DNA of 64,000 bases from Novosphingobium sp. EMRT-2. Its GTDB lineage: Bacteria > Pseudomonadota > Alphaproteobacteria > Sphingomonadales > Sphingomonadaceae. This document shows, in pieces, positions 6,637-23,883 of this stretch. How positions within the stretch are numbered: the stretch's first letter is position 1; each line of letters begins with the position of its first letter. The translations under genes and the position numbers were made by a program. Below the pieces are notes generated by a model. It saw only the letters and a program-made list of their open reading frames with translations. It was not told the origin of the DNA and did not search any database. The stretch covers positions 1,855,501-1,919,500 of the forward strand of contig NZ_CP039695.1 in NCBI RefSeq assembly GCF_005145025.1, written 5' to 3'.

Positions 6637-6655
6637 TTGTACGTGTTGCAAACAA
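6637..6655 (-). promoter_or_regulatory. Operator site A of the aromatic regulon
   Basis: On the minus strand this reads TTGTTTGCAACACGTACAA, which matches the best site (12822-12840) at 17 of 19 positions. It lies just upstream of the Shine-Dalgarno of the NTF2-like gene, a position suited to repression of the whole five-gene unit. Confidence 0.6.
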
Positions 6656-6678
6656 ACTGCGGCAACTTCATTGAACTG

Positions 6679-8103
6679 TCAACGACCTTCCGCTTCCAGC
6701 CGCGCCACTTCGGCGCGATAGGGGCGGATGGCCAGCACCATGCACAGCGTGGCGATCGGCAGCAGCGTGCCGGCGGTGATGACCAGCGCCTTCCACAGGT
6801 CCGCCTCCACCCCCACGATCCGCTGCGCGACCACGCCGACCACGAAGCTGCCGAGCGCGCCGAAGAAGGTGAACATGAACAGGTAGATCGCGGTCACCTG
6901 CCCGCGCATCTCGTTGGGGGCGATGCGCTGGATCGCCGCGTTCTGCGGCACCGCGCCGGCCAGGCCGAACACCCCGCTCAGCGCAAACACCGCCAGCGCC
7001 ATCTCGCCCGTGGGCATCAGCGGCGCGGTGATCGAGCAGATCGTGACGAGCGCGAACAGGATCGCCGCGCAGCGCACGTTGGCATCGACGTGGCGCTTGG
7101 CCATCCATTCCACGAACACCCCGCCCAGAAACACGCCGGCCAGCTGCGAGACGAGCAGCATCGGCGCCATGACCAAGCCGATGCGCCCCTCGTCCCAGCC
7201 ATAGGTGCGGATCATGAATGGCACGCGCCAGAACATCAGGCCGAACGTTTCGATCGCGCTCAGCGCCAGGCCGCCGAACAGCGGGTAATAGACCCGCCCG
7301 CGCGCATGGATCGCCTTGGCCGCGTCCAGCCCGGTAAAAGCGAGCACGCGCCGGCCCAGCCCCTGCCGCTCCGGCACCGGCACGCGCCCTTCCGCCGGCG
7401 CACGGACGAGGCGCGGCGGTTCCTTGACCAGCAGCAGCAGGCCGGCCGCCAGCAGCCCCAGCACCGCCTGGCCCACGAGGATCAGCTGCCAGCTATGGAC
7501 CCGCAGCCCCAGCACGTGCGCCTCGCTCCAGCCCGCCAGCGCGACGATCAGCTTGCCGCCGGCCAGCACGCCCGCGGTCGTCCCGCCGATGAAGCCCAGT
7601 TGCAGCAGCGCGAAGGCGCGGGTGATCTTCTTCGGCGGGAAATAGTCCGCGATCATCGAATAGGCCGCCGGCGCGTGCGCCGAACCGCCCGCGCCCAGGA
7701 ACATGCGGCTGCCGATGAACTGGCCGAACCCCTGCGCGATGCCGCCCAGCCCCATGATCACGCCGGTCGCCGCCATGCCGCCGGCCAGCACCAGCTTGCG
7801 CGGATAGATGTCCGCCAGCCGGGCCAGCGGGATGCCCACGAACACGAAGAAGATCACACTGGCGGGGCCGCCCAGAAAGCCCAGCTGTTCGTCGGTCAGC
7901 CCGAAATCGATCTTGATCCGCTGCGCCAGCATGCCGAACACGGTCTGGTCGAAAAAGTTCAGGAACGTCGCCGCGATGATCGCGAACAGCGCGAAATAGG
8001 CCGATGCGGTTGACGGCCAGCGCCGCTCGGCGCCCCCTCCTTCCGCCTTGCTTTCAGATACTTCCGGCGCACCGGTCATCGCCGGGGATGCTGCTCCCGC
8101 CAT
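6679..8103 (-). CDS. MFS transporter (spinster-like)
   Basis: A 474-residue major facilitator permease with an extended polar N-terminus (about 45 residues) and about twelve hydrophobic helices. The first helix region is AYFALFAIIAATFLNFFDQTVF, and the motif ARLADIYPRK follows the second helix. It is the same broad type as the permease after ligW but clearly not a recent copy. I chose the ATG at 8103 because GGGAGAGGAGAG precedes it; an upstream in-frame ATG at 8157 lacks one. Transcription probably starts at the operator-bearing divergent promoter at 8158-8176. Its substrate is unknown but is likely an aromatic acid. Confidence 0.82.
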   Translation of the reverse strand: MAGAASPAMTGAPEVSESKAEGGGAERRWPSTASAYFALFAIIAATFLNFFDQTVFGMLAQRIKIDFGLTDEQLGFLGGPASVIFFVFVGIPLARLADIYPRKLVLAGGMAATGVIMGLGGIAQGFGQFIGSRMFLGAGGSAHAPAAYSMIADYFPPKKITRAFALLQLGFIGGTTAGVLAGGKLIVALAGWSEAHVLGLRVHSWQLILVGQAVLGLLAAGLLLLVKEPPRLVRAPAEGRVPVPERQGLGRRVLAFTGLDAAKAIHARGRVYYPLFGGLALSAIETFGLMFWRVPFMIRTYGWDEGRIGLVMAPMLLVSQLAGVFLGGVFVEWMAKRHVDANVRCAAILFALVTICSITAPLMPTGEMALAVFALSGVFGLAGAVPQNAAIQRIAPNEMRGQVTAIYLFMFTFFGALGSFVVGVVAQRIVGVEADLWKALVITAGTLLPIATLCMVLAIRPYRAEVARLEAEGR

Positions 8104-8157
8104 CTGCTCTCCTCTCCCGGCCAGTCGATTCTCCGACCTGTTTTTCGCACCGGACAA

Positions 8158-8176
8158 TTGTTAGTCTTGCATACAA
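8158..8176. promoter_or_regulatory. Operator site B of the aromatic regulon, divergent promoter
   Basis: Reads TTGTTAGTCTTGCATACAA on the plus strand; its reverse complement agrees with the site at 12822-12840 in 16 of 19 positions. It lies between the MFS gene (start 8103) and the SDR gene (start 8296), so it could control both. Confidence 0.6.
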
Positions 8177-8295
8177 TCTCGCGCTGGTGAATAGAAAAGA
8201 CGATAACGAATGGTCGCATGGCCCCGGCACCCGGCTCCGCCTCTGAAACGGACCGTGGCAACCGGGCGGGCGGCGCAGCATGGAGAGAGGCAAGG

Positions 8296-9210
8296 ATGCA
8301 GAATCTTCCCGGCAAGACGGCTTTCATCACGGGCGGGGCCAGCGGCATCGGCCTCGGCATCGCCAAGGCGCTGCTCGGCGCGGGGATGAACGTGACCATC
8401 GCCGACATCCGCCAGGATCACCTCGATTCGGCCGTCGCCGAACTGGACGGGGGCGACCGCGTGCTGGCGGTGAAGCTCGACGTGACCGATCGCGCGGCCT
8501 TCGCCGCCGCGGCCGACGCCGCCGAAGCGAAGTTCGGCAAGGTCCACATCCTGTGCAACAACGCCGGCGTCGCGGTGGTCGGCCCCACCGACCTCGCCAC
8601 CTTCGCCGACTGGGACTGGGTGATGAACGTCAACCTGGGCGGCACGATCAACGGCGTGGTCACGATCCTCCCGCGCATCCTGGCGCATGGCGAAGGCGGG
8701 CACATCGTCAACACCGCCTCGATGTCGGCGCTGGTGCCGGTGGGCGGAACCACGATCTATTCGACGGGCAAGGCCGCCGTCACCGCGATGATGGAATGCA
8801 TGCGCCCCGAACTGGAGCCGCGCGGCGTGATCTGTTCGGCCTTCTGCCCCGGCGCGGTCCAGTCCAACATCGCCGACGCCGGCAAGACGCGCCCCGCCGA
8901 CCTGTCCGACACCGGCTATGCCGAGGCGGACAAGCGCCGCGCGGCCGGCGGCAACTTCATGCACCTCTACCAGACCAAGGAAGAGGTGGGCGAACGCGTG
9001 CTGCGCGGCATTCTCAACGACGAGCTCTACATCCTCACCCACAGCGAGTTCCTGGCCGGCGTGCGCGAACGCGGCGAAGCGACCACGGCGGCGGTGCAGA
9101 CCCACTTGCCGGAAAATCCGGAATACAAGGAAACCTTCGCCATGCTGTTCCGCAACCCGGCAATCACCGCCGAGATCGAACGGCAGAACCGGCTGCGCGC
9201 CGGCGCCTGA
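8296..9210 (+). CDS. Short-chain dehydrogenase/reductase, LigD-like
   Basis: A 304-residue classical SDR with the coenzyme motif TGGASGIG near the N-terminus, CNNAG in the middle, catalytic Ser in NTASMSA and the YSTGK catalytic pair. Length, the C-terminal extension and the motif SNIADAGKTRPA recall the LigD/LigL/LigN/LigO dehydrogenases that oxidise the alpha-hydroxyl of lignin beta-aryl ethers, so an aryl-alcohol substrate is plausible. The ATG at 8296 follows GAGAGGCAAGG; a longer in-frame start at 8218 has no good site. It is the first of two tandem SDR genes and is divergent from an MFS transporter across operator site B. Confidence 0.85.
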   Translation: MQNLPGKTAFITGGASGIGLGIAKALLGAGMNVTIADIRQDHLDSAVAELDGGDRVLAVKLDVTDRAAFAAAADAAEAKFGKVHILCNNAGVAVVGPTDLATFADWDWVMNVNLGGTINGVVTILPRILAHGEGGHIVNTASMSALVPVGGTTIYSTGKAAVTAMMECMRPELEPRGVICSAFCPGAVQSNIADAGKTRPADLSDTGYAEADKRRAAGGNFMHLYQTKEEVGERVLRGILNDELYILTHSEFLAGVRERGEATTAAVQTHLPENPEYKETFAMLFRNPAITAEIERQNRLRAGA

Positions 9211-9215
9211 CCATA

Positions 9216-9317
9216 AACCCCTCCCGCGGGCGGGAGGGGTTTGGGGTGGGCAATCCCACGCACATCACATTTCAGGGAGAGGCCCACCCCCGGCCCCTCC
9301 CGCAAACCGGAGGGGAG
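9216..9317. repeat. Palindromic repeat, family C copy 1, overlapping an RBS
   Basis: It holds nested inverted repeats: CCCCTCCCG / CGGGAGGGG (9218-9239), GGGGTGGGC / GCCCACCCC (9243-9290), and CCCCTCC / GGAGGGG (9294-9315). The last right arm is also the Shine-Dalgarno of the SDR gene starting at 9322. A related element lies at 51164-51298. Confidence 0.7.
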
Positions 9318-9321
9318 ACAT

Positions 9322-10242
9322 ATGAAGGATTTCGCAGGCCGCACCGCCTTCGTCACCGGCGGCGCCAACGGCGTCGGCATCGGCCTCGTGCGCCAGCTGC
9401 TCAACGAAGGCTGCAAGGTCGCCATTGCCGACATCCGCCAGGATTCGATCGACAAGGCCCTCGCCGCGCTGGACAACCGCGAGGTCATGGGCGTGCAGCT
9501 CGACGTCGCCAGCCGCGAAGGCTTCCGCGAGGCGGCCGACCGCGTCGAGGCGGAAATGGGGCCGGTCTCGATCCTGTGCAACAACGCCGGCGTGAACCTG
9601 TTCCAGCCGATCGAGGAAAGCTCGTTCGACGATTGGGACTGGCTGCTGGGCGTGAACCTGCACGGCGTGATCAACGGCGTGATGACCTTCGTGCCGCGCA
9701 TGGTCGAAAGAGTGAAGGCGGGCGAGCAGAAGGGCGGCCACGTCGTCAACACCGCCTCGATGGCCGCGTTCCTCGCGGCGGGCACGCCGGGCATCTACAA
9801 CACCACCAAGTTCGCGGTGCGCGGCCTGTCGGAATCGCTGCACTATTCGCTGCTGCAATACGGGATCGGCGTGTCGGTGCTCTGCCCCGGCCTGGTGAAG
9901 AGCTACATCTACGCCAGCGACGATATCCGCCCCGATGCGCTGAAAGGCCAGATGAAGGCGGTGGACAAGGCGGCGGTCGATCGCCTTGCCGGGGTCCACG
10001 AATTCGGCATGGAGCCCGACGTGATCGGCGCGCGGGTGATCGACGCGATGCGCCACAACCGCCTGCACATCTTCTCGCACCCCGATCACAAGGACGAGAT
10101 GCGCACCATCTTCGACGAGATCATCGCCGAATATCAGGACTATCCGAAGGACCCCGGCTTCGACCAGCGCGTGGCCTTCGAGAAGTTCCGCCACGATGCC
10201 TTCGCCGAAGCCCGGCGCAAATCGCGCACGGCGGATTTCTGA
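9322..10242 (+). CDS. Short-chain dehydrogenase/reductase, LigD-like, second of tandem pair
   Basis: A 306-residue SDR with TGGANGVGIG, CNNAG, the catalytic NTASMAA Ser and the YNTTK pair. The N-terminus MKDFAGRTAFVTGGA and the segment DWDWLLGVNLHGVINGVMTFVPRM closely recall sphingomonad LigD, the NAD-dependent alpha-dehydrogenase of beta-aryl ether cleavage, and it shares many positions with the SDR immediately upstream, so the pair looks like an old tandem duplication. Substrate assignment within the LigD group is not possible by eye. The ATG at 9322 follows AGGGGAG, which lies in the arm of a hairpin formed by a repeat element. A family A repeat follows the stop. Confidence 0.87.
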   Translation: MKDFAGRTAFVTGGANGVGIGLVRQLLNEGCKVAIADIRQDSIDKALAALDNREVMGVQLDVASREGFREAADRVEAEMGPVSILCNNAGVNLFQPIEESSFDDWDWLLGVNLHGVINGVMTFVPRMVERVKAGEQKGGHVVNTASMAAFLAAGTPGIYNTTKFAVRGLSESLHYSLLQYGIGVSVLCPGLVKSYIYASDDIRPDALKGQMKAVDKAAVDRLAGVHEFGMEPDVIGARVIDAMRHNRLHIFSHPDHKDEMRTIFDEIIAEYQDYPKDPGFDQRVAFEKFRHDAFAEARRKSRTADF

Positions 10243-10267
10243 GGGGAGGAAACAACTCTCGCGCCAA

Positions 10268-10351
10268 CGTCATTGCGAGCGCCAAGCGAAGCAATCCAGA
10301 GTCCCGCGCGCGGCTCCGGATTGCCAGGGGGCTCCGCCCCTCGCAATGACC
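10268..10351. repeat. Palindromic intergenic repeat, family A copy 2
   Basis: Starts CGTCATTGCGAGCGCCAAGCG and ends CCCCTCGCAATGACCG, with inner arms AAGCAATCCAGAG and CTCCGGATTGCC. It is very similar to the copy at 37445-37527. It lies between convergent SDR and metF genes. Confidence 0.85.
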
Positions 10352-10430
10352 GCGGTACAGCGTTATCGCGTGGTCACACGCGCCGGGCCCCGTCCCCGCC
10401 CGGTGGACGAGGACGTAGTCCGTCATCGCC

Positions 10431-11306
10431 TCAGATGCCGTGCTTGCGGTTGTACTCGTGAATCCACTCGAGCGTCTTCACCAGACCGCCGAACGGATAG
10501 AAGTGCAGGCGCACCCGGCCGTGTTCCGGCCCCAGCCCCTGGGCGAAGGCGTTCACCAGCTTGTCCGGCCCGGCCGAGCCGAGCAGGTTGGTGACCGAGA
10601 TGCCGTACTTCTTGAGGACAGACGTGGACGCGCCCACGCCGCAGCGCGCGGCAAACGCGAGCAGGCGCTTGATCCCCGCAGGCCCCGGCACGCCGATGCG
10701 CACCGGCGCGTCGATGCCGCGCGCGCGCAGCTCCTTCAGCCAGGCGAGGAACGCATCGGGATCGAAGCCGAACTGGGTGACGATCAGCGGGGCCATGCCG
10801 CGCCGCTCGATTTCCGCCACCTTCTTTTCCAGCACGGCCCAGCATTCGGCCACGGTCATGTTGGGGTGGCCTTCGGGATGCCCGCCAACGCCGATCGCCT
10901 TGATCCCGGCGCGCTCGAACGCGCCCGTCGCGATCAGCGCGGAGGTATCGAAATAGGGGCCTTGCGGCTCGGGCGGGTCGCCGGCGACGATGAAGCAGCG
11001 CTCCACCCCGGCCTGTTCGACCACGGCCTTGAGATAGCCTTCGAAATCGTCTTCCGACAGGATGCGGCGGGCCGAGAAGTGCGGCATCGGCTCGAAGCCC
11101 AGCTCGCGCACCGCCACGGTCGCGGCGACGCGGGCGGCCACGTCCTCGCCCGGCAGGAAGGTAACGGCGATCGGCGTATCGGCGGGGATGAGCGGGGCGG
11201 CGTCGCGCAGCGAGGCCTCGTCCTTTGCGGTCATCTCCAGGCTGAAGCCGTCGGTGATCCCGTCGGGCGCCTTGTCCCAGTTGGGATGAATCAGGGGTGT
11301 TGCCAT
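10431..11306 (-). CDS. metF: Methylenetetrahydrofolate reductase of the O-demethylation module
   Basis: A 291-residue MetF-family TIM barrel using FAD. In O-demethylating sphingomonads the enzyme runs in reverse to oxidise 5-methyl-THF, made by LigM, to 5,10-methylene-THF. Family features include the N-terminal FSLEMTAK (the EFxP-like segment), MPHFSARR and the folate-binding GVPGPAGIKRLL. It is 78 bases downstream of ligM on the same strand, the same arrangement as in Sphingobium SYK-6. The ATG at 11306 has AAAAGAGGATC in front. Because it sits in this module it may not be the cell's methionine-pathway MetF. Confidence 0.9.
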   Translation of the reverse strand: MATPLIHPNWDKAPDGITDGFSLEMTAKDEASLRDAAPLIPADTPIAVTFLPGEDVAARVAATVAVRELGFEPMPHFSARRILSEDDFEGYLKAVVEQAGVERCFIVAGDPPEPQGPYFDTSALIATGAFERAGIKAIGVGGHPEGHPNMTVAECWAVLEKKVAEIERRGMAPLIVTQFGFDPDAFLAWLKELRARGIDAPVRIGVPGPAGIKRLLAFAARCGVGASTSVLKKYGISVTNLLGSAGPDKLVNAFAQGLGPEHGRVRLHFYPFGGLVKTLEWIHEYNRKHGI

Positions 11307-11384
11307 AGCGGGATCCTCTTTTGGTGGAAGGCCATCCGCCCGGCCGCCTTTGCGGCGATCCGGGCGGGGCCAGTCTTCATTGCA

Positions 11385-12842
<1,458 letters not shown>

Positions 12843-12908
12843 TCAAACGAGATTCGCAATCGGAAATCGTGCGCCCTATGAGGCCCACGCAGACGGGAGA
12901 GACTTTTG

Positions 12909-13763
12909 ATGAGTGCACCGCTGATTTTGACGCTTTCGTGCGAGGACAAGCCGGGCATAGTCGCCCGCGTCACCGGCAACCTGTTCGAATCGGGCGCCAA
13001 CATTCTCGAAGCGCAGCAGTTCGACGATACCGAATCGGGCCGCTTCTTCATGCGCGTGGTGTTCGATCCCGGCGAAGCGGGCGCCGACGCGCTCCGTTCC
13101 GCCTTCGCGCCCGTGGCGCAGCAGTTCGCCATGGACTGGACCATGCGCGATACCGCGGCCAAGCGCCGCACCATCCTGATGGTGTCGAAGTTCGATCACT
13201 GCCTGGGCGATCTGCTCTACCGCACGCGGCTGGGCGAGCTGCCGATGGACGTGGTGGCGATCATCGGCAACCACCCCAAGGAAGCGCTGAACATCTCGCT
13301 GATCGGCGACGTGCCCTATCACCACCTGCCGATCACGCGCGATACCAAGCCGCAGCAGGAAGCCGAAGTGAAGCGCATCGTCAACGAAACGGGTGCCGAA
13401 TTCGTGGTGCTGGCGCGCTACATGCAGATCCTCTCGGACGATCTGGCGCGGTTCCTATCGGGCCGCTGCATCAACATCCACCATTCGTTCCTGCCCAGCT
13501 TCAAGGGCGCCAAGCCCTATCACCAGGCGCACGCGCGCGGCGTGAAGATGATCGGCGCCACCGGGCATTACGTAACGGCGGATCTCGACGAAGGCCCGAT
13601 CATCCACCAGGACGTGGAAACGGTCAGCCATGCCGACACGCCCGAGGATCTCGTGCGCAAGGGCCGCGACATCGAACGCCGCGTGCTGGCCGAAGCGGTG
13701 CGCCTGCACCTGGAGGACCGCGCACTGCTGAACGGCAACAAGACCGTGGTGTTCAAGGGCTGA
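12909..13763 (+). CDS. purU: Formyltetrahydrofolate deformylase
   Basis: PurU hydrolyses 10-formyl-THF to formate and THF. The 284-residue protein has an N-terminal ACT domain ([21 protein letters not shown]) and a formyltransferase-fold catalytic domain with the conserved [16 protein letters not shown] (catalytic His) and [13 protein letters not shown] (catalytic Asp). It is divergent from ligM and shares its promoter region, so it probably recycles the folate loaded with one-carbon units by demethylation. SYK-6 uses a formyl-THF ligase (LigH) with ligM-metF instead. ATG at 12909 follows GACGGGAGAGAC; a TTG one codon upstream is less likely. Confidence 0.93.
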
Positions 13764-13771
13764 TACGGTTG

Positions 13772-13800
13772 CCGGGCGGCGGCACCAGCCCGCCGCCCGG
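13772..13800 (+). other. Hairpin between purU and the VOC gene
   Basis: An 11-bp perfect stem (CCGGGCGGCGG / CCGCCGCCCGG) with a 7-base loop lies just after purU. There is no following T-run, so it is more likely an mRNA-stabilising or partial stop structure than a full terminator. Confidence 0.45.
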
Positions 13801-13836
13801 GGCCGCCTCCGGTCCTGTTTGCGAGAGGAGAAGGCC

Positions 13837-14238
13837 ATGCGCGTCAACGCGCTCGATCACGTCAACATCATCACCGACCGGCTCGACGAAACCGCCGAAT
13901 TCTACCGTTCCCTGCTGGGCCTGGAACGGCGCGACGCGCCCGCCCCGCTGACGCCGCGGAACGCGCAGTGGATGTACGATCACGCCGGCCGGGCGATCAT
14001 CCACATCAATTCGGAAGACTGCCCCCGCACGTTCGACCGCACCGTGCGCCCCGGCGAACTGACCGGCGCGATCCACCACGTCGCGCTCAACTGCACCGGC
14101 TATGACGAGATGCTCGGCCGGATCGAGGCGCGCGGCATGGCCTATCAGGTCAATACCGTCGCCGCGATCGGCCTGCGCCAGATCTTCACCGCCGATCCCA
14201 ACAACGTGTTGCTGGAACTCAATTTCTTCGGCGATTGA
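13837..14238 (+). CDS. VOC (glyoxalase/bleomycin-resistance fold) family protein
   Basis: A 133-residue single-domain vicinal-oxygen-chelate protein: the N-terminal ALDHVNIITDRLDETAEFYRSLLGL carries the first metal His, GAIHHVALNC the second module, and NNVLLELNFF the late Glu. Such small VOC proteins act as glyoxalases, extradiol-type dioxygenases or isomerases; at this size an aromatic ring-cleavage dioxygenase is unlikely. It is 73 bases downstream of purU on the same strand and probably co-transcribed, so it may act on an aromatic-catabolism intermediate. The ATG at 13837 follows GAGGAGAAGG; two residues of upstream frame are ignored. Confidence 0.8.
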   Translation: MRVNALDHVNIITDRLDETAEFYRSLLGLERRDAPAPLTPRNAQWMYDHAGRAIIHINSEDCPRTFDRTVRPGELTGAIHHVALNCTGYDEMLGRIEARGMAYQVNTVAAIGLRQIFTADPNNVLLELNFFGD

Positions 14239-14267
14239 ACCCCGCCTGCCGCGCGGAGCCGCTCGTC

Positions 14268-15005: not shown

Positions 15006-15035
15006 GTCGTTCCCATTTCTCCCTTTCGCCGCGCC

Positions 15036-15812: not shown

Positions 15813-15834
15813 CGACTTTCTCCCGTGGGCGCGT

Positions 15835-16596
15835 TCAGACGCGCATCGTTCCCAGCATCCCGCCATCCACCGCCCAGGCCTGCCCGGTGACGTGGCTCGC
15901 CGCGTCCGACAGCAGGAACGCGGCGACCTCGGCCAGTTCCGCCGCCGTGCCGGTGCGTCCCTGCGGCACCGCGCGCGCCATCTGCGCGGCGGCTTCGGGC
16001 GGAAGCCCTTCCAGCATCGGCGTATCGATCAGGCCGGGGATGATGCAGTTGCAGCGCACGCCGAACGCGGCCGCCTCGATGGCGACGGCACGCGACAGGC
16101 CCAGCACCGCGTGCTTGCTGGCGACATAGCCCACGTTCATCGGAAAGCCGCGCTCGCTGGCCAGGCTGCCCGTCACCAGGATCGCGCCCGCGCCGCGCTG
16201 CTTCATCGCCGGCAGCACATGCTGGATCGCCCAGAGCACGCCCTTGAGGTTCACCGCCATCACCGCGTCGAAGGCATCGTCGGGATAGTCCTCCACCGGC
16301 GCGAAGGTGCCGCCGATCCCGGCGTTGAGGAACAGCCCGTCGATCGACCCGTTCGCCGCGACGGCGGCGTCGAGCGCGCCCTTGAGCGCAGCCTTGTCGG
16401 CCACGTCGGCGGCGGCGAAGGCCGCGCGGGCGCCCGTTTCGGCGCGCAGGGCGGCCACCGCCTGCTCCAGCAGGTCGGCGCGGCGCGCGATCAGCGTCAC
16501 CGCCGCGCCGGCCTGCGCGCAGCGCGTGGCGCTGGCGCGGCCGATCCCGGTCGATGCCCCGGTGATCACGACATGCCGACCCGCAAGATCGGTCAT
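15835..16596 (-). CDS. Short-chain dehydrogenase/reductase
   Basis: A 253-residue classical SDR: TGASTGIGRA coenzyme motif, LNAGIG in place of NNAG, catalytic Ser in VTGSLASERG, and YVASK. Its shorter length and ending VTGQAWAVDGGM are typical of the FabG-like group, unlike the LigD-like SDRs at 8296 and 9322. The start ATG overlaps the stop of the upstream phosphatase-like gene (ATGA), indicating translational coupling. The substrate is unknown; its operon partners suggest a lignin-derived alcohol. Confidence 0.85.
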   Translation of the reverse strand: MTDLAGRHVVITGASTGIGRASATRCAQAGAAVTLIARRADLLEQAVAALRAETGARAAFAAADVADKAALKGALDAAVAANGSIDGLFLNAGIGGTFAPVEDYPDDAFDAVMAVNLKGVLWAIQHVLPAMKQRGAGAILVTGSLASERGFPMNVGYVASKHAVLGLSRAVAIEAAAFGVRCNCIIPGLIDTPMLEGLPPEAAAQMARAVPQGRTGTAAELAEVAAFLLSDAASHVTGQAWAVDGGMLGTMRV

Positions 16597-17057
16597 CGCG
16601 CGGATTCCGCGATAAACGCGGCCCAGACTTCCGCCTCGGGCCGGTCGCTGCCGTCGGGCGACCACTGGCGTTCCATGATCGCGCGCGCTTCCGGCTCGGG
16701 CATGCCGCGATGGTCGCGATTCAGCCGGTAGAGGAACGCCGAAACGCGCCAGTTCATGATGCAGTGGACGTGGACCGGGCGCGGGCCTTCCTCCACCGCC
16801 TTGCGAAAGGCGGCGAAGTGATCCTCGCCCGGCGCGTCGAACGGCACCGGGATGTGGGTATAGGCGATGCCCTGCCCGGTCAGCTTGGCGCCTTCGTCCG
16901 CCAGCGCCTCGGGATGGGTTTCCAGCGCGAGGTTGACGACGTGGCGCACGCCCAGCGCCGCCAGCCGCGCCACGTCCTTGTCCTCGATCCGGCCGGAGGT
17001 GGTGATCTCCGCGTCGAGCCGCTGCCAGGCGCGGATGTCTTCGGGATCGCCAGCCAT
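16593..17057 (-). CDS. Protein-tyrosine-phosphatase-like / DUF442-type small protein
   Basis: A 154-residue protein of the dual-specificity-phosphatase fold related to DUF442 (beta-lactamase hydrolase-like) proteins. ARLAALGVRHVVNLALETHP and YTHIPVPFDAPGEDHFAAF are family hallmarks. The P-loop reads HCIMNWR, keeping Cys and Arg four residues apart, but the usual Gly is replaced by Asn, so phosphatase activity is uncertain. It sits between an amidohydrolase and an SDR in a catabolic operon, an odd place for a phosphatase. The ATG at 17057 has GGAGGGGCC ahead; its end overlaps the SDR start. Confidence 0.75.
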   Translation of the reverse strand: MAGDPEDIRAWQRLDAEITTSGRIEDKDVARLAALGVRHVVNLALETHPEALADEGAKLTGQGIAYTHIPVPFDAPGEDHFAAFRKAVEEGPRPVHVHCIMNWRVSAFLYRLNRDHRGMPEPEARAIMERQWSPDGSDRPEAEVWAAFIAESAR

Positions 17058-17068
17058 GGCCCCCTCCG

Positions 17069-17941
17069 TCAGGCCAGCCCGAGCACGCGGGTGGCGTTGT
17101 CCTTCATGATGCCGGGCAGCACGTCTTCCTTGAAGCCGACCTTGAGGGCCGCCTCGATCCACTTCTGCGGATGAATCAGCGGAAAATCGCTGCCGAACAG
17201 CATCTTCTTGCGCAGCTGCGTGTTGGCGTACTGGATGATCTGCGGCGCGAAATACTTGGGCGACCAGCCCGACAGGTCGATGAACACGTTGTCCTTGTGC
17301 AGTGCCATCGACAGGCTTTCGTCCACCCACGGCCAGCTCGGATGGGCCAGGATGATCTTCATGTCGGGGAAATCGACCGCCACGTCGTCGACCAGCATCG
17401 GCTGGCCGTACTTCAGCCGCACCCCGCCGCCGCCGCGCATCCCCGTGCCCATGCCGGAATGGCCGGTGTGGAAGATCGCGGGCAGCTTGTATTCGTTGAT
17501 GACCTCGTAGATCGCATAGCCGACCTGCTCGGCCGGGTGGATGTTCTGCATGATGTGGTGGAACTTGAAGCCCCGCACGCCGTGGTTCTCGATCAGGTCC
17601 CGCGCCTCGCGCGCGCCCAGCTTGCCCTTGTGCGGATCGATCGAGGCGAAGGGGATGCAGATGTCGTCATGCTTCGCGGCGAATTCGGCGATCTCGTAGT
17701 TCGACAGGCGCTTCGCACCGATGCCGCTCTCGCAATCGACCGTGAACAGGCAGAAGGCGATCTGCTGTTCGCGGTAGATCTCGACGATCTCGGGCATCTT
17801 GGGCCGTTCGCGCGGCGCCTTGAAATAGGCCGAGGCGGCATCGAAGAACTTGCCCATGATCGGGTCTTCGGGATCGTGGCACGAAACCTCGGCATGGACG
17901 TGGACGTCGATCGCCTTGATCTTGGTTAGGTCGATGGGCAT
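17069..17941 (-). CDS. Amidohydrolase family protein (Amidohydro_2)
   Basis: A 290-residue TIM-barrel metal-dependent hydrolase or decarboxylase. The metal-site motif DVHVH is at the N-terminus, IFHTGHSG and ILAHPSWPW supply later His ligands, and GSDFP supplies the Asp. Unlike LigW it keeps the HxH motif, so it probably binds zinc or another divalent metal in the ordinary way. The reaction could be decarboxylation, hydration or ring hydrolysis of an aromatic-derived acid. It heads a minus-strand operon that continues with the phosphatase-like, SDR, GST and alpha/beta hydrolase genes. The upstream gap carries a palindromic repeat rather than a recognisable operator. Confidence 0.82.
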   Translation of the reverse strand: MPIDLTKIKAIDVHVHAEVSCHDPEDPIMGKFFDAASAYFKAPRERPKMPEIVEIYREQQIAFCLFTVDCESGIGAKRLSNYEIAEFAAKHDDICIPFASIDPHKGKLGAREARDLIENHGVRGFKFHHIMQNIHPAEQVGYAIYEVINEYKLPAIFHTGHSGMGTGMRGGGGVRLKYGQPMLVDDVAVDFPDMKIILAHPSWPWVDESLSMALHKDNVFIDLSGWSPKYFAPQIIQYANTQLRKKMLFGSDFPLIHPQKWIEAALKVGFKEDVLPGIMKDNATRVLGLA

Positions 17942-17966
17942 TTTCCAGACTTTCCAAAAAGATGCC

Positions 17967-18064
17967 CGTCATCCCGGCGAAAGCCGGGATCTCAGGCCGT
18001 TGCAGGGCAAGCGCCGGGTGGATCGGCCCAGCCTCACGAGATCCCGGCTTTCGCCGGGATGACG
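17967..18064. repeat. Palindromic element, family B, with 26-bp terminal inverted repeats
   Basis: The ends, CGTCATCCCGGCGAAAGCCG... at 17967-17992 and its exact reverse complement at 18039-18064, form perfect 26-bp inverted repeats around a 46-bp unique core. Each arm itself folds (CCCGGC-GAAA-GCCGGG). It lies between the amidohydrolase gene and a decayed aldehyde dehydrogenase end. Confidence 0.9.
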
Positions 18065-18071
18065 GTGACAC

Positions 18072-18128
18072 CTACAACCGGTGAGTCACCGTCTTGGTCT
18101 CGCGATAGGCACCGATGTTCTGGCGATC
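18072..18128 (-). pseudogene. Decayed C-terminal end of an aldehyde dehydrogenase gene
   Basis: On the minus strand this short stretch reads RQNIGAYRETKTVTHRL then stop. That is very like the C-terminal tail of many aldehyde dehydrogenases (…YRETKTV). An in-frame TGA lies a few codons before it and no ALDH body is found upstream, so it appears to be the fossil 3' end of a lost gene. The remaining bases to 18288 hold no gene that I can support. The match is short, hence moderate confidence. Confidence 0.45.
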
Positions 18129-18288
18129 ACGTCATTCCTCGCGAATTTCTTCTCCATGAAAAATTCTGATCCGTGAAAATCCAGCTGGTAAGCGAGGCAT
18201 ACGAATTTTGCCAGCGCAAACCACCATTATGCAGGGAAGCGAACGATCGGCCGCATGCCTCGTCCGCCCCGCACCGGATAGTCCAGCG

Positions 18289-20418
18289 TCAGCCGCCTTG
18301 CGCGGCCAGCGCCTTGTCCTCGTTCGCGCGCTTGATCACGTAGAGCCGGATCGTCTCGATCTGCGCCGGCGTCAGCACCGGCGACCAGGCGATCATGCCG
18401 TTGTCCTTCAGCGCGCCGTCGTGCACGATCATCTGCCACGATTTCGGATCGGCCAGAAAGCCGCTGCGGCGCAAGTCGGGCACCACGCCCCCGCCGATCG
18501 CGGCATCGCCGTGGCAGACGTTGCAATAGCGGCCGAAGTGCTGCGCGCCTTCCGCCACTTGCGCGGGCGTGCCGGTCAGGGCGGGCGGATCAAGCGGCAG
18601 TTCGTTCAGCGCCGGAGCCGGCGGCAGGCTGGCCTTGCCGCCGATCTTGAACACCAGCAGGCGGCTGACGTTGCGCACCGGGCCGGATTTTTCGGCGAGG
18701 ATGCCGGTCGCCAGCGGCCACACGCCGCCCCAGCCGGCCAGCACCGCGACGTACTGCTCGCCGCCCGCCATGAACGTGACGGGGGCCGCGACCGCGCCGG
18801 TCTGCGCGGGGAACGACCACAGTTCCTTGCCGTCCCGGATCGAATAGGCCGCGAACGTGCCCTTGGCGTTGCCCTGGAACAGCAGGCCGCCCCCGGTGGC
18901 CAGCAGGCCCCCGTTCCACGGGCCGGGGAAGCTGACGCGCCAGCGTTCCTTCTGCGCTACCGGGTCCCAGGCGATGATCGCCCCAGTGGTGGCGGCGCGC
19001 GCCTCGGCGCGGACCTTGGCGTCGGCCGGCATCGCGCTGGCCGCCTGGTCGATGCCCACGTTGAAGCCAACCGGCGAAGGCTTCCAGTTCTTGTCGGGGA
19101 AATAGGGGAACGCGGCGAACTGCGCGGGGATGAACACCAGCTTCTGCGCCGGGTCATAGGCCATCGGGTGCCACGAATGCGCGCCCGCCGCGCCCGGCGT
19201 GCTGATGAAGGGCTTGCCCGTCTTGTCATAGCGCGAATCCGGGTTCTCGATCGGCCGGCCGCTCACCGGGTCCAGCCCGGTCGCCCAGTTCACCGGCGCA
19301 TAGTTGTTGCCCGAGATGAACTGGCCCGTTTCGCGGTCGATCATATAGAAGAAGCCGTTCTTCGGCGCGTGCATCAGTACCTTGCGGACCTTCCCGTTGA
19401 TTTCGAGGTCGGCCAGCATGATGTGCTGCGAAGCGGTGAAGTCCCAGGTTTCGCCCGGCGTTTCCTGGAAGTGCCAGACGTACTGGCCGGTCTTCGCGCG
19501 GATCGCGACGACCGAGGACAGGTAGAGGTTGTCGCCGCCGCCCGGCGACCGGTACGACTGGTTCCACGGGCTGCCGTTGCCCACGCCGATGTAGAGCAGG
19601 TCGGTGGCCGGGTCATAGGCCATCGAATCCCAGACGGTGCCGCCCCCGCCCAGCTTCCACCATTCGCCGTGCCAGGTGGATTCGGCCTTCTTCAGGTATT
19701 CCTCGGTGTTCTTCCCCGGCTGGTCTGGCACGGTGTAGAACCGCCAGACCTGCTTGCCGGTCTGCGCGTCGTAGGCGGTGATATAGCCGCGCACGCCCAT
19801 TTCGGCGCCGCCGTTGCCGATCAGCACCAGCCCGTTGATCACGCGCGGCGCGCCGGTGATGGTATAGGCCTTGGTCTGGTCGACCGTCACGGTGGACCAC
19901 ACCTGCTTGCCCGTCGCGCGGTCCAGCGCGATCAGCCGGCCGTCCAGCGTGCCGAGATAGAGCTTGTCGCCCCACGCCGCCATGCCGCGGTTGACCACGT
20001 CGCAGCACGCCTTCACCGCGGTTTCACCGGGCACCTTGGGATCGAACTCCCACAGCAGCTTGCCCGATACCGCGTCATAGGCCTTGGCCTTCGACCACGC
20101 GGTGGTGATGTAGATCTTGCCGTCGATCACCAGCGGCGTCGCTTCCTGCCCGCGCGCGGTGTCCATGTCGGCGGACCAGGCCAGCCCCAGCGAGCCGATG
20201 TTGCCCTGGTTGATGCGGTCGAGCGGGCTGAAGCGCTGCTCGTCATAGGTGCGGCCATAGGAGAGCCAGTCCACCGCGCTGGCGGCCTGGATGCGCGCGG
20301 CGTCCACCACGCTGCGGGCGCCACCGTTCGCCGCCGTCACCATGTCGCTGGCGGTCAGCGTTGCCAGCAGCACCGCGCCCGATGCCAGCGCCCATCGGAT
20401 TCCACGCATCATTCGCAT
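18289..20418 (-). CDS. PQQ-dependent quinohemoprotein alcohol dehydrogenase
   Basis: A 709-residue periplasmic type II alcohol dehydrogenase: signal peptide (to about residue 29), an eight-bladed PQQ propeller with the adjacent-Cys disulfide CCDVVNRG, and a C-terminal cytochrome c domain with the heme site CNVCH and a late Met ligand (DNGMIAW). The catalytic Asp is in GETWDFTASQ. The residue two places later is Thr, not the extra Asp of lanthanide enzymes, so Ca2+ is expected. It would oxidise an alcohol or aldehyde and pass electrons to the respiratory chain. It ends an operon of GSTs and an acyl-CoA ligase, suggesting a lignin alcohol substrate. PQQ synthesis genes are not in the window. 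Confidence 0.92.
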   Translation of the reverse strand: MRMMRGIRWALASGAVLLATLTASDMVTAANGGARSVVDAARIQAASAVDWLSYGRTYDEQRFSPLDRINQGNIGSLGLAWSADMDTARGQEATPLVIDGKIYITTAWSKAKAYDAVSGKLLWEFDPKVPGETAVKACCDVVNRGMAAWGDKLYLGTLDGRLIALDRATGKQVWSTVTVDQTKAYTITGAPRVINGLVLIGNGGAEMGVRGYITAYDAQTGKQVWRFYTVPDQPGKNTEEYLKKAESTWHGEWWKLGGGGTVWDSMAYDPATDLLYIGVGNGSPWNQSYRSPGGGDNLYLSSVVAIRAKTGQYVWHFQETPGETWDFTASQHIMLADLEINGKVRKVLMHAPKNGFFYMIDRETGQFISGNNYAPVNWATGLDPVSGRPIENPDSRYDKTGKPFISTPGAAGAHSWHPMAYDPAQKLVFIPAQFAAFPYFPDKNWKPSPVGFNVGIDQAASAMPADAKVRAEARAATTGAIIAWDPVAQKERWRVSFPGPWNGGLLATGGGLLFQGNAKGTFAAYSIRDGKELWSFPAQTGAVAAPVTFMAGGEQYVAVLAGWGGVWPLATGILAEKSGPVRNVSRLLVFKIGGKASLPPAPALNELPLDPPALTGTPAQVAEGAQHFGRYCNVCHGDAAIGGGVVPDLRRSGFLADPKSWQMIVHDGALKDNGMIAWSPVLTPAQIETIRLYVIKRANEDKALAAQGG

Positions 20419-20475
20419 CTCTCATCCTCTCCCGTCGGCCGGCTTCCGGCTCGGATTCGCGCCCCGTTTAATGGG

Positions 20476-22041
20476 TTAGTTAACCATCCGCTGGGCGTCA
20501 CCCCAATACTTCACGCGCAGCGCCTTCTTGTCCATCTTGCCGGCGGCGGTGCGCGGGATTTCGGGCACGAACTCGACCGACTTGGGCGCCTTCACCCCGC
20601 CCAGGCGATCCTTGGCATAGGCGATGATCTCCTCCCCGGTGATCCCCTCGGCCACCACCACGGCATGGACCTGCTCGCCCCACTTCTCGTGCGGGATGCC
20701 GAACACGCAGGCCTCGCGCACTTGCGCGAGTTCGGTGACCGCCGCCTCGACCTCGGCGGTGAACACGTTGAACCCGCCGGAGACGACCATGTCCTTCTTG
20801 CGGTCGACGATGTAGAGGTAGCCGTCCTCGTCGAACTTGCCGACGTCGCCGGTGTGATGCCAGCCGAACTTGCGGACTTCGGCGGTTTCCTCGGGCTTTT
20901 CGAAATAGGAATGGCTGACCAGCGCGCCGCGCGCGCAGATCTCGCCCGCCTCGCCGCGCGGCACCTCGCGGCCGTCGTCGTCGAGCAGCGCGACCCGGAT
21001 GGAGCGCGTGGGCCGGCCGCAGGCGGCCAGCTTTTCGGGCGCTTCCTTCGCGAACCGCGCCACGTCCTCGGGCGGGAACCACGCCACGATCATCGGGCAT
21101 TCGACCTGGCCATAGGACTGGCACATGCACGGCCCGAAGATGTCGACCGCCTGCCGCAGCTTTTCCGGGCTGCACGGCGAACCGACCAGGATGAAGATGC
21201 GCAGGCTGGAATAGTCGTGATCGCCGATCTCGGGCGATGCCATCAGCTGGTACAGCGCCGTCGGCGGCAGGTACATGTGGGTAACCTTGTAGTCCGCGAT
21301 CGTCCGCAGCACGCGCTCGGCGTCGAAGCCGGGCAGGATCACCTGCGTCGCGCCCAGGCTCAGCGTGGACAGCGCGATTGGCCCCGCCGCGTGCGTGATC
21401 GGCGCGGAAACCAGCGCCACCGGGCTGTCGGTGCGCCCGCCCATGCCGTCGGCGGCCGTCTCGATCATCGTGCCCCAGCCCAGGTTGGTGACATTGGCGC
21501 CCTTCGACGGGCCGGTGGTGCCGCCCGTGGGAAAGATGCCGACCAGATCGGACAGGTTGCCGAAGGCATCGACTTCCGGCTCGACGAAATCGGCGGCGGT
21601 CACGCCCGCCATGAACTCCTCGAGGCTGGGATCGTCGCCCATCCGCTTGTCGAGGCAGACGAAGTGCTGCATCACCGGGCAGCGGTCCTTGAGCTGCTGG
21701 ACCTCGTCCGCCTTCGACGAATGATAGACCAGCCACTTGCAGCGCACGTAGTTGATGTAGCCGGCGTTGGCATCGATGGCGTTGCGCGTGTTGACCGGGA
21801 TCCACTTGCCGTTGGCGCGCCACATCGCCAGCAGCACCACCAGCAGCATCCCGTCGTTCGGACCGTACAGGCCCAGCAGATCCTGGTTCTCGAACCCGCC
21901 GCGCTGCAGCGCCGCCGCGATCCGTTCGGACAGTTCCTTGGTCTCGGCGAAGGTCAGCTTCAGGCCGGTTTCGGTGTCCACCACCGCCAGCCGCTGCGGA
22001 TCGCGATCATGGCCCCGGTCGAAATAGTCGATTGCACGCAT
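20476..22041 (-). CDS. AMP-dependent acyl-CoA synthetase
   Basis: A 521-residue adenylate-forming ligase that activates a carboxylic acid with ATP and CoA. Motifs in order: phosphate loop PTGGTTGPSKGA (about 180), SYGQVECP (about 305), WHHTGDVGKFDEDGYLYIVDRKKD (about 395-420) and the final catalytic Lys in TAAGKMDKKAL. It belongs to the broad fatty-acyl/aryl-CoA ligase class and is not an obvious FerA. It follows the GST pair by only 7 bases and precedes the PQQ dehydrogenase by 57, which fits an alcohol-to-acid-to-CoA series on a lignin side chain. The ATG at 22041 follows GGGGGTAATCCGACG; a longer frame to 22182 would overlap the GST gene. Confidence 0.9.
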   Translation of the reverse strand: MRAIDYFDRGHDRDPQRLAVVDTETGLKLTFAETKELSERIAAALQRGGFENQDLLGLYGPNDGMLLVVLLAMWRANGKWIPVNTRNAIDANAGYINYVRCKWLVYHSSKADEVQQLKDRCPVMQHFVCLDKRMGDDPSLEEFMAGVTAADFVEPEVDAFGNLSDLVGIFPTGGTTGPSKGANVTNLGWGTMIETAADGMGGRTDSPVALVSAPITHAAGPIALSTLSLGATQVILPGFDAERVLRTIADYKVTHMYLPPTALYQLMASPEIGDHDYSSLRIFILVGSPCSPEKLRQAVDIFGPCMCQSYGQVECPMIVAWFPPEDVARFAKEAPEKLAACGRPTRSIRVALLDDDGREVPRGEAGEICARGALVSHSYFEKPEETAEVRKFGWHHTGDVGKFDEDGYLYIVDRKKDMVVSGGFNVFTAEVEAAVTELAQVREACVFGIPHEKWGEQVHAVVVAEGITGEEIIAYAKDRLGGVKAPKSVEFVPEIPRTAAGKMDKKALRVKYWGDAQRMVN

Positions 22042-22048
22042 CGTCGGA

Positions 22049-22846
22049 TTACCCCCAGCGATTGATTTCAGGCCCCGGCGCCCAGGCGCGGAGCGGTTCG
22101 GATACGGTGGCGCGCGCCAGCGCGGTGGCCACGGCGGGCCGCTCCTGCACGCGCGCCAGCCATGCGGCGGTTTTCGGCGCATCGGCGAAGGCTTCCGGGC
22201 GCAGCAGGGCCATGCCCGCGAGCCAGGAGAACGTGACGATGTCGGCGATCGAATAGACGCCCATCAGCCAGTCGCGCCCGTCGGCCAGCTGGCCTTCGCA
22301 GCGCGCGACCGCCTGCGCCACCTTGGTCTCGCTGTCGGCCACCTGCGCCGCGTCCACCGCGCCGTCGTGCAGCGCCTGCCAGCGCTGGCGCAAGTCGTCG
22401 GACACGATGCTGGCGGTGATCCCCGCGAAATCCTCCGCGCCGATGGCGGCGATTTCCACCTGCGAGGAGGCCAGGTTGCCGAGCAAGGCCGCCGCCGGCG
22501 AAAGCCGTTCGGTGATCTGCCGACACCACATCATCATTTCCCAATGGGCATGGGAATCTTCTGGCTGAAGTCCGGCACCGCCCGCGCGTTCGTCGAGGTA
22601 CTGCGCCAGGAACACCGACTCGGTCATCGCCTCGCCGTCGATCACCAGCACCGGGCCTTCGCCCTCGATGCCCATGTCGAGCGCGACGCGTTCGGTCAGG
22701 CCGGGGATGCCGTGCCGTTCACCGGCCAGCAGGTCGATCGGCCGGCAGGCGATGCCCAGCGCCGCTTCGCCGCCCGCTTCCGCAAGCGCCGCCAGCACCG
22801 TCAGCGAAGCGCCGTTCGGCTCGCCGTGATAGAGAACCGCGCCCAT
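22049..22846 (-). CDS. Glutathione S-transferase, second of overlapping pair
   Basis: A 265-residue GST-fold protein. The N-terminal domain has LYHGEPNGASLTVLAALAEAGG, GEGPVLVIDG and MTESVFLAQYLDER, and the C-terminal domain ends with MGVYSIADIVTFSWLAGM, a typical GST helix 6 motif. It is divergent from the GST encoded just upstream. The start codon overlaps that gene's stop (TGATG), implying translational coupling and probably a stoichiometric complex. Adjacent, unlike GSTs have been described as a heterodimeric beta-etherase (BaeA/BaeB) in Novosphingobium; whether this pair is that enzyme cannot be decided without alignment. Confidence 0.82.
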   Translation of the reverse strand: MGAVLYHGEPNGASLTVLAALAEAGGEAALGIACRPIDLLAGERHGIPGLTERVALDMGIEGEGPVLVIDGEAMTESVFLAQYLDERAGGAGLQPEDSHAHWEMMMWCRQITERLSPAAALLGNLASSQVEIAAIGAEDFAGITASIVSDDLRQRWQALHDGAVDAAQVADSETKVAQAVARCEGQLADGRDWLMGVYSIADIVTFSWLAGMALLRPEAFADAPKTAAWLARVQERPAVATALARATVSEPLRAWAPGPEINRWG

Positions 22847-23625
22847 CAGTCGATGCCTTCCATGATCAGGCTGTAGCGGTGGGCCAGGTCGGTGCGCCCC
22901 ATCGCCCAGGTCTTCTGCACCGCCTCGCGCTGGTACACGCGCTTGAGCCAGCGCATGATGTTGGGCGTGCGGTCCTTGCCGGCGAGGTCCGGCTGCGACA
23001 GCGGCAGCGAATAGGTGCTGTTGAAGATGTTGATGTCGGCCAGGCTGTATTGGTCCGAGCCGACATAGGCGCGCTTGCCCAGCTCCTGTTCGAGCAGATC
23101 GATGCCCAGCGCCACGCGGCGGCGGCTTTCCGCCATTTCCGCTTCCCCGAAAGCGCCGCTGATCGCCTTGCGCCAGGCCACGCGGCGTTCGGGCAGCGGG
23201 ATGCGCTCGATCGCCGCGTCCAGCTCGGCCGGATCGCGCTGGCGCACCATCGGGCCGACGAACACACTCCAGCCGATCATCGAGAAGCTGGGGCCAAGCC
23301 ACTGGTCCATGAACTTCATCCACCAGCGGATGCGCCAGCGGTCGCGCGGATCGGCGGGCATCAGGGCAGGCCCGGCGAATTCCTCGTTCACGTATTCCAT
23401 GATCGCGGTGCTTTCGGTCAGCACGCGCGTGCCCCACGCCCCGCTGTGCGTCATCGCCGGGATCGTGCCCTGCGGATTGATCGCGAGGTATTCGGGCTTG
23501 TGCTGGTCGAACTGGAGCATGTCGATGTAATGGCTGTCGAACGACACGCCCTTTTCCATCAGCGCCAGCATCGGCTTGCCCGAATTGGCGTTGGGTTCCC
23601 AGTGGTAGAGCGCGATCCCGCTCAT
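22846..23625 (-). CDS. Glutathione S-transferase, LigF-like, first of overlapping pair
   Basis: A 259-residue GST with ANSGKPMLALMEKGVSFD, FDQHKPEYLAINPQGTIPAM and LTESTAIMEYVNEEF in the thioredoxin-like domain and KRAYVGSDQYSLADINIFN in the helical domain. The pattern is that of LigF-type sphingomonad GSTs acting on lignin ethers. Its own ATG lacks a clear Shine-Dalgarno; instead an eight-codon upstream reading frame with a strong site ends in an ATGA overlap with this start. An operator lies further upstream at 23679-23698. Good confidence for GST, low for substrate. Confidence 0.85.
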   Translation of the reverse strand: MSGIALYHWEPNANSGKPMLALMEKGVSFDSHYIDMLQFDQHKPEYLAINPQGTIPAMTHSGAWGTRVLTESTAIMEYVNEEFAGPALMPADPRDRWRIRWWMKFMDQWLGPSFSMIGWSVFVGPMVRQRDPAELDAAIERIPLPERRVAWRKAISGAFGEAEMAESRRRVALGIDLLEQELGKRAYVGSDQYSLADINIFNSTYSLPLSQPDLAGKDRTPNIMRWLKRVYQREAVQKTWAMGRTDLAHRYSLIMEGID

Positions 23626-23648
23626 GCCGCGCCGCCGTGCTGCACCAT
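23622..23648 (-). CDS. Eight-codon leader reading frame coupled to the GST gene
   Basis: After GGGAGAGAGTCG, an ATG at 23648 opens MVQHGGAA and stops at TGA 23622-23624, overlapping the GST ATG at 23625 as ATGA. The GST start has no Shine-Dalgarno of its own, so ribosomes would have to reach it by reinitiation. It may be a leader peptide, or a frameshift that removed a former N-terminal extension. Confidence 0.4.
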   Translation of the reverse strand: MVQHGGAA

Positions 23649-23678
23649 CGACTCTCTCCCGATCGGGCCATCCCGATT

Positions 23679-23698
23679 TTGTTAGTGTTACATACTAA
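23679..23698 (-). promoter_or_regulatory. Operator site D of the aromatic regulon
   Basis: Reads TTGTTAGTGTTACATACTAA, agreeing with site B at 16 of 19 positions with one extra base near the end, and containing its own TTAGT/ACTAA inverted repeat. It lies 31 bases upstream of the leader ATG of the GST operon, the same placement as the other three sites. Confidence 0.55.
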
Positions 23699-23788: not shown

Positions 23789-23807
23789 GGTTTCATACAG
23801 TGAAACC
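23789..23807. promoter_or_regulatory. Perfect 19-bp palindrome upstream of the GST operon
   Basis: GGTTTCA-TACAG-TGAAACC has 7-bp perfect arms and a 5-bp spacer. It is about 140 bases upstream of the GST leader and 77 bases from the end of the pirin gene. Its shape is that of a repressor operator, with a sequence unlike the TTGTATG family. Target gene unknown. Confidence 0.4.
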
Positions 23808-23833
23808 AAAAGGCGCTATTGTGGCGAACACGG

Positions 23834-23862
23834 AAAACCCCGCGCCGGGGCGGCGCGGGGTT
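23834..23862 (-). terminator. Rho-independent terminator of the pirin gene
   Basis: A 12-bp stem (AACCCCGCGCCG / CGGCGCGGGGTT) with a three-base loop is followed on the minus strand by a run of T (TTTTCCG). It starts 22 bases after the pirin stop codon. Confidence 0.8.
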
Positions 23863-23883
23863 CCGGGGATCAGCAGGGAATGG

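Follow-up and report, generated by a model that had tools for sequence, protein, structure and literature searches.

Candidate operators of a DesR/Saro_0803-type MarR repressor at lignin-catabolism units of Novosphingobium sp. EMRT-2

The window analysed here, a stretch of 64,000 nucleotides (C1:1855501-1919500, contig NZ_CP039695.1) from the 4.77-Mb genome of Novosphingobium sp. EMRT-2, holds four 19-bp boxes of the inverted-repeat type TTGTATG-N5-CATACAA, each close to the start of an aromatic-catabolism unit, which we read as probable operators of the genome's orthologue of the MarR-family repressors DesR and Saro_0803. A first-pass annotation, made from the sequence alone, had proposed the boxes as a shared operator and had placed all four correctly, save that it ended the last at 23698, one base too far. 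They are listed below with a doubtful fifth candidate; scores are those of the position matrix described further on, and the boxes carry no strand.

6637..6655, operator candidate of the pcfL-ferD-DUF2490-ligW-MFS unit: TTGTACGTGTTGCAAACAA, 23.4 bits, 18 nt ahead of the pcfL ATG
8158..8176, operator candidate between a major facilitator superfamily (MFS) gene (minus strand) and a short-chain dehydrogenase (SDR) gene (plus strand), divergent: TTGTTAGTCTTGCATACAA, 29.6 bits
12822..12840, operator candidate between ligM-metF (minus strand) and purU-VOC (plus strand): TTGTATGCAACACATACAA, a perfect palindrome, 31.4 bits
23679..23697, operator candidate of the unit encoding two glutathione S-transferases (GST), an acyl-CoA ligase and a PQQ dehydrogenase: TTGTTAGTGTTACATACTA, 27.6 bits
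18186..18204, weak and doubtful fifth candidate box, 16.9 bits, about 245 bp before an amidohydrolase gene (17069-17941, minus strand)

The genes of the four units are the following.

5879..6619, minus strand, pcfL homologue, SnoaL/NTF2-like (PF13577), 83% identical to the gene at the same place in strain DSM 12444; its product is a putative gamma-formaldehyde lyase, named after PMC11323797 from gene order and homology
4444..5874, minus strand, ferD homologue, aldehyde dehydrogenase (PF00171), 87% identical to that of DSM 12444
3652..4350, minus strand, DUF2490 protein
2556..3617, minus strand, ligW homologue, amidohydrolase-type decarboxylase (PF04909), 80% identical to that of DSM 12444
934..2500 (start approximate), minus strand, MFS transporter downstream of ligW (PF07690 at residues 244-695 of frame 934-3201)
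6679..8103, minus strand, MFS transporter (PF07690)
8218..9210, plus strand, SDR (PF00106, an assignment at the level of the SDR family; the label LigD-like comes from the first-pass annotation)
9241..10242, plus strand, second SDR
11385..12785, minus strand, ligM, vanillate/3-O-methylgallate O-demethylase (NF047885, 896 bits, cut-off 580)
10431..11306, minus strand, metF-like methylenetetrahydrofolate reductase (Pfam 35.6 bits, cut-off 24; below the NCBIfam cut-off)
12906..13763, plus strand, purU, formyltetrahydrofolate deformylase (TIGR00655, 328 bits, cut-off 286)
22846..23625, minus strand, glutathione S-transferase, the first gene behind the 23679 box
22049..22846, minus strand, second glutathione S-transferase
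20476..22182, minus strand, AMP-binding acyl-CoA ligase (N-terminal start uncertain; the frame overlaps the second GST)
18289..20418, minus strand, PQQ-dependent dehydrogenase with a cytochrome domain

Measured to the start codons chosen in this analysis, on which the values depend, the distances from box to gene are 18 nt for pcfL, 55 for the MFS gene and 42 for the SDR gene, 37 for ligM and 69 for purU, and 54 for the first GST gene, and the first start codons of the units thus lie 18-55 nt away, as the annotation had indicated. Its pattern also stands, with the amendment that palindromy is perfect in the 12822 site alone: of the seven positions in each arm, 5, 5, 7 and 4 pair in sites 6637, 8158, 12822 and 23679, respectively. 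Pairwise identity is 14-17 of 19, a wider spread than the 16-17 first given. Within three mismatches of TTGTATGN5CATACAA the window contains five matches against 0.32 expected, the fifth (18186) being much weaker. To build the position matrix, we took 33 distinct sites that precede orthologues of the regulator gene in other genomes; these were the best matches (at most four mismatches) to the window's own consensus, and the matrix is therefore not wholly independent of it. Its top four sites in the window are exactly the four boxes, the 23679 site being retained for this score in spite of three mismatches to the strict consensus, and the highest value in 300 Markov-simulated 64-kb windows was 18.1 bits, above the 18186 box. 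The boxes are also conserved. In the genome that we take to be that of N. aromaticivorans DSM 12444 (G538), the pcfL homologue has a site of 25.7 bits at the identical 18-nt spacing and the site before ligM is identical to the 12822 box, and the MFS/SDR arrangement around 8158 recurs in six loci of relatives (L238, L241, L253, L254, L268 and L273).

A search of the 64-kb window found no DesR-like gene inside it. The candidate regulator lies just outside:

C1:1849818-1850297 (L017:4819-5298), DesR/Saro_0803-type MarR gene, 5.2 kb left of the window and divergent from lsdD

The gap between the two genes carries the box TTGTATGCTACACAAACAA, 20 bp from the lsdD start and 21 bp from the MarR start, so that an operator of the autoregulatory type, with the core of the SYK-6 repeats IR-R, IR-M and IR-B, is present upstream of the MarR gene itself. 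The lsdD product passes NF053778 (880 bits, cut-off 800) and the MarR protein passes the NCBIfam Saro_0803 family NF053777 (238.3 bits, cut-off 200), sharing 94 of 159 residues with DesR of Sphingobium sp. SYK-6 and 134 of 156 with Saro_0803 of DSM 12444; at the 13 positions published for the binding of DNA and resveratrol by Saro_0803 it is identical throughout, and SYK-6 DesR is identical at 11. On these comparisons the gene is orthologous to both. Among solved structures the best sequence match is CouR (PDB 6c28, E 2.5e-13); CouR, PcaV and HpaR, all of known structure, likewise belong to the MarR family, with matches far weaker than those to the DesR/Saro_0803 family, and their operators and effectors presumably differ from those of the DesR type. 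The annotation had instead offered, as a possible candidate, the LysR gene within 23800-25626, which adjoins the 23679 site. Control of all four units by that gene is very improbable, and we rejected it: the site type is that of the MarR operator proven for DesR in SYK-6, the box precedes DesR orthologues, and three of the four sites lie more than 10 kb from the LysR gene.

In SYK-6, the dimeric MarR protein DesR (SLG_12870) binds at and represses ligM, desB and desR; vanillate and syringate release it, and it needs the inverted repeats IR-M, IR-B and IR-R. Its reported regulon comprises ligM-metF-ligH, desB and desR (PMC6888825). The SYK-6 operators IR-R GTATGCTACGCTTAC, IR-M GTTTGTGTAACATAC and IR-B GTTTGTGTCACATAC have a 15-bp core in common with the window sites. 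A search of the family for the IR-B/IR-M pattern matched 13 of 397 genomes, among them G144, which we take to be SYK-6, and its congener G391, and IR-B, IR-M and IR-R are all present in these two. G144 has a MarR frame that begins with TTG and encodes 172 aa (177 aa from a second in-frame TTG), and an exact IR-R occupies positions -76 to -62 relative to it, in agreement with the published description of desR; the protein passes NF053777 with 237.1 bits. The EMRT-2 system thus resembles that of SYK-6 in its orthologous MarR protein, the 15-bp core, the site between the lsdD homologue and desR, and ligM as a target, but differs from it in having further boxes, ahead of pcfL-ferD-ligW, MFS/SDR, GST, folD, formate dehydrogenase and other genes.

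In DSM 12444, the MarR protein Saro_0803 has been described as repressing nov1 and binding an A/T-rich site of 22 bp, with GCAATA-TATTGC printed as the bound inverted repeat of the nov1 promoter, and as being inhibited by resveratrol; the portions of that paper available to us draw no link to ligM or one-carbon genes (PMC10046596). G538 encodes a 157-aa regulator with all 13 checked Saro_0803 residues at their printed positions, and its lsdD/Saro_0803 gap holds TTGTATGTATTGCTAACAA, which overlaps the printed repeat GCAATA...TATTGC; the idea that the printed repeat is a different operator was dropped on account of this overlap. The two systems share an orthologous regulator, divergent from nov1/lsdD, and a box in the same intergenic stretch, and differ in that Saro_0803 is described as a resveratrol-responsive nov1 repressor and in that the conserved box is shifted relative to the printed repeat. 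We infer that this conserved box is the real Saro_0803 operator. With a core known from SYK-6 DesR and an overlap with the nov1 repeat, the operator can no longer be called undescribed.

Regulator and box occur together across genomes. In a survey of 119 genomes of the family, 33 had any regulator match at E 1e-10; all 18 of the strongest (E <1e-50, the window genome's own included) carry a box of at most three mismatches within 150 bp upstream, as against none of 12 further fetched MarR matches (E 6.6e-40 to 4e-12) at up to four mismatches. Among named genomes, 63 of the best 80 of 192 regulator loci have an upstream box of at most four mismatches. Within the genus, sampled by 149 genomes, the strict pattern TTGTWWGN5CWWACAA is found in 53 of 57 congeners with the regulator versus 7 of 92 without it (Fisher p 1.3e-27, from a table of 53/4 and 7/85 counted by eye, two 149-genome samples being taken as one set). 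The seven genomes with a strict box and no regulator at E 1e-40 were rechecked by family profile: two, both complete, encode a DesR-like protein that is more distant (E 2e-42 and 5e-44), and in the other five (52, 67, 78, 80 and 94% complete) the MarR matches are all weaker (best E 3e-26 to 3e-21).

The four boxed promoters of the annotation turn out to belong to a larger set, much of it at one-carbon genes. In the EMRT-2 genome the exact TTGTATGN5CATACAA precedes folD (L016), ligM in the window, a formate dehydrogenase operon (L018) and a MarR/TonB-receptor locus (L019), and variants with one or two mismatches, to which the 6637 and 8158 boxes also belong, stand at lsdD/MarR (L017), GST/GFA (L022), SnoaL/SDR (L024), TonB receptor/MarR (L024) and gcvT (L021). 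Another two-mismatch match (L020, 23.0 bits), beside a TonB receptor, has no clear target, and a last one (L023, C1:1497319, two mismatches) was discarded because no reference target was in reach and because it is absent from the three best matrix sites of its locus, the top one of which has 7.5 bits. Three-mismatch sites in the rest of the genome, whose number is close to that in the control, were not counted as targets. In relatives, where regions were chosen from site lists and not at random, 49 fetched loci contain 52 strict sites, and for 39 of them a homologue (at least 50% identity) of a listed target starts no more than 450 bp away. The recurrent ones are folD (7), ligM (6, with purU in 5), GST (6, with GFA in 3), MFS/SDR (6), SnoaL (6, with SDR in 5), formate dehydrogenase (3) and MarR_A (2); pcfL, lsdD/desR, ligE and desA occur once each, an automated desA count of 7 including ligM genes. 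The remaining 13 include two sites at genes for S-(hydroxymethyl)glutathione dehydrogenase (613.5 and 615 bits, against a cut-off of 544), one at the gene of a glutathione-dependent disulfide oxidoreductase, and several at TonB-receptor, SDR or aldehyde-dehydrogenase-like frames. In the genome scan that the annotation had called for, good matches are not placed at random.

One-carbon units are a common thread of the boxed genes. FolD, PurU and formate dehydrogenase carry one-carbon units to formate and CO2. LigM and DesA load methyl groups on tetrahydrofolate (PMC6888825), and PcfL releases formaldehyde from the beta-5 dimer (PMC11323797). In DSM 12444, five candidate genes were expressed on the beta-5 dimer at more than twice their level on vanillin, and two adjacent units account for four of the five (PMC11323797); on our reading these four are pcfL, ferD, ligW and lsdD. 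A stilbene effector would account for this induction no less well than vanillate.

The promoter of ligE provides a further line of evidence. When DSM 12444 was evolved on a beta-ether dimer, three of the four resulting strains acquired the same point mutation 55 bp before ligE, within an inverted repeat for which the available portions of the paper name no regulator, and LigE was about 1000-fold higher on glucose in the two evolved strains examined (PMC11837543). In G538 the box TCGTTTGTGTTACTAACAA (L288:7546-7564, 28.3 bits, four mismatches to the strict consensus) extends from -58 to -40 of the chosen ligE ATG and covers -55. In another genome (L270), a ligE homologue (59%) has a strict box 97 bp upstream. 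Another G538 box, at 2571839, was ruled out as the ligE box, since it stands before desA. The mutation and the rise in LigE give indirect in vivo support to the box as a repressor site.

Taken together, these data lead us to propose, with a probability of about 0.88, that the four window sites are operators of the genome's DesR/Saro_0803 orthologue, derepressed by aromatic intermediates. One operator shared by the units, under a dimeric repressor relieved by an aromatic effector, had been the annotation's suggestion and is still the best explanation. Without effector, the MarR protein (a dimer in SYK-6) would occupy the 19-bp box in the promoter or leader and block transcription; the position of the boxes 18-55 bp before the window start codons fits a repressor that blocks initiation or early elongation, as has been proposed for SYK-6 ligM and desB (PMC6888825). 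Aromatic intermediates, presumably vanillate or syringate, as with SYK-6 DesR, or stilbenes, as with resveratrol and Saro_0803, would release it, and the cell would jointly derepress the breakdown of beta-5 dimers into stilbenes and monomers (pcfL, lsdD, ferD, ligW), MFS transport and ligM O-demethylation, and one-carbon removal via tetrahydrofolate and formate (metF, folD, purU, formate dehydrogenase).

Several observations weigh against this proposal. The four regulator-bearing congeners among the 57 that lack a strict box, and the 17 of the best 80 of 192 regulator loci in named genomes that have no upstream box of at most four mismatches, loosen the association, as do the 94% complete genome that has six strict boxes and no close regulator and a MarR match of 55% identity (L043, E 6.6e-40) with no box within 200 bp upstream, which may be a diverged orthologue. 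The higher expression of the beta-5 candidates on the dimer than on vanillin means that vanillate alone does not explain their induction. SYK-6 desA is outside DesR control (PMC6888825), and the desA box of G538 has a weak score of 12.9 bits. The authors who described the ligE mutation were unable to reconstruct it singly in a wild-type background, and its effect is for this reason not isolated (PMC11837543). Finally, weak thresholds barely separate signal from background: at up to three mismatches the EMRT-2 genome has 26 forward matches versus 20 in the reversed control and G144 has 12 versus 8, so that the consensus by itself does not single out operators in G144, and the relaxed pattern with one mismatch gives 19 versus 10 in EMRT-2. 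Such figures would suit a chance resemblance among AT-rich promoter words. Against this, the window genome has 9 matches to the strict pattern and none to its reversed control, the latter is without a match in all 149 genomes, and G538 has 11 versus 0 at up to two mismatches; all four boxes exceed the 300 simulations, and the 39 of 52 strict sites in relatives lie at the same genes. All three published operators are among the 12 G144 matches, and the two of the nine others that were scored by matrix reach 12.5 and 14.6 bits. For the four sites as a set, chance is refuted by matrix, controls and conservation, and we give it next to no weight.

A more serious competitor is that the boxes are read by, or shared with, MarR_C (L019:5271-5789) or MarR_A (L024:6813-7298), as paralogues dividing the sites by spacer or effector. 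The genes of both adjoin similar half-sites (in L019 and L024), which counts against sole control by the DesR/Saro_0803 orthologue, as either protein could read some of the boxes. MarR_C (172 aa) is preceded by the boxes TTGTATGGAAGGCATACAA and TTGTATGGTGGCCAGACAA, whose starts are 44 bp apart (L019:5827-5889) and which also lie ahead of a TonB receptor; its recognition helix looks related by eye, and it gives a weak match to the Saro_0803 family (52 bits, cut-off 200). MarR_A occurs with a TonB receptor and a box in four loci (L024, L242, L248 and L260), but its helix differs by eye and it has no Saro_0803-family match at E 0.001. Moreover, the L019 spacers are unlike those of the SYK-6 operators, whereas a spacer of the TGTTG/TGTTA type, as in the ligM and desB operators of SYK-6, occurs in three of the four window boxes (both by eye), and across the genus it is the DesR orthologue with which the box co-occurs. 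We therefore consider a role for the paralogues at these sites unlikely, and favour the DesR/Saro_0803 orthologue.

Beyond the window, we lean, with rather less assurance, towards DesR/Saro_0803 being a broad lignin regulator of Novosphingobium that answers both a dimer-derived stilbene and monomer acids. It would couple cleavages releasing one-carbon units (PcfL, SnoaL relatives, LigM, DesA) to one-carbon sinks (MetF, FolD, PurU, GcvT, GFA, FdhA, formate dehydrogenase) and to glutathione enzymes including the beta-etherase LigE, and the ligE promoter mutations would, on this view, affect an operator of the regulon. The regulator and the type of operator are already known; what appears to be new is the extent of the gene set, which here comprises pcfL-ferD-ligW, lsdD, MFS/SDR, ligM-metF/purU, folD, formate dehydrogenase, GST/GFA and SnoaL/SDR, and in relatives also desA, ligE and fdhA. 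A wider DesR/Saro_0803 regulon was not found described in the literature searched, which covers few subscription papers and was judged mostly by titles and the openings of abstracts, and a published table of 44 regulators tested by DNA affinity purification sequencing (DAP-seq) in DSM 12444 omits Saro_0803. The proposal points to one likely regulator and operator for many lignin units in a genus studied for the conversion of lignin to chemicals. It offers a concrete reading of the published ligE mutations and a better-placed candidate operator for the Saro_0803 biosensor, and it predicts that demethylation and the disposal of formaldehyde and formate rise and fall together.

Some further sites deserve mention. 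Upstream of gcvT (L021, C1:490763 region), a box-like site (4764-4782, 23.6 bits) lies between the gene and a tandem glycine riboswitch (L021:4813-5032, RF00504, 58.5 and 48.2 bits), an arrangement which suggests that glycine and DesR might both control glycine cleavage. The 487,268-base replicon of G538 has a folD copy with a perfect box 35 bp upstream (L283:4735-4753), and a second folD, on the chromosome, has a weaker box 432 bp upstream (L289). In EMRT-2, a relaxed box, TCGTTAGTCTGGCAAACAA, stands immediately before a glutathione reductase gene (L292:1501-1519, C1:3469650), and a box of 24.1 bits (L024:12852-12870, C1:1532851) precedes the gene of a 262-aa protein with no Pfam match, near a second lignostilbene-dioxygenase-like gene of the RPE65 family (L024:10072-11553).

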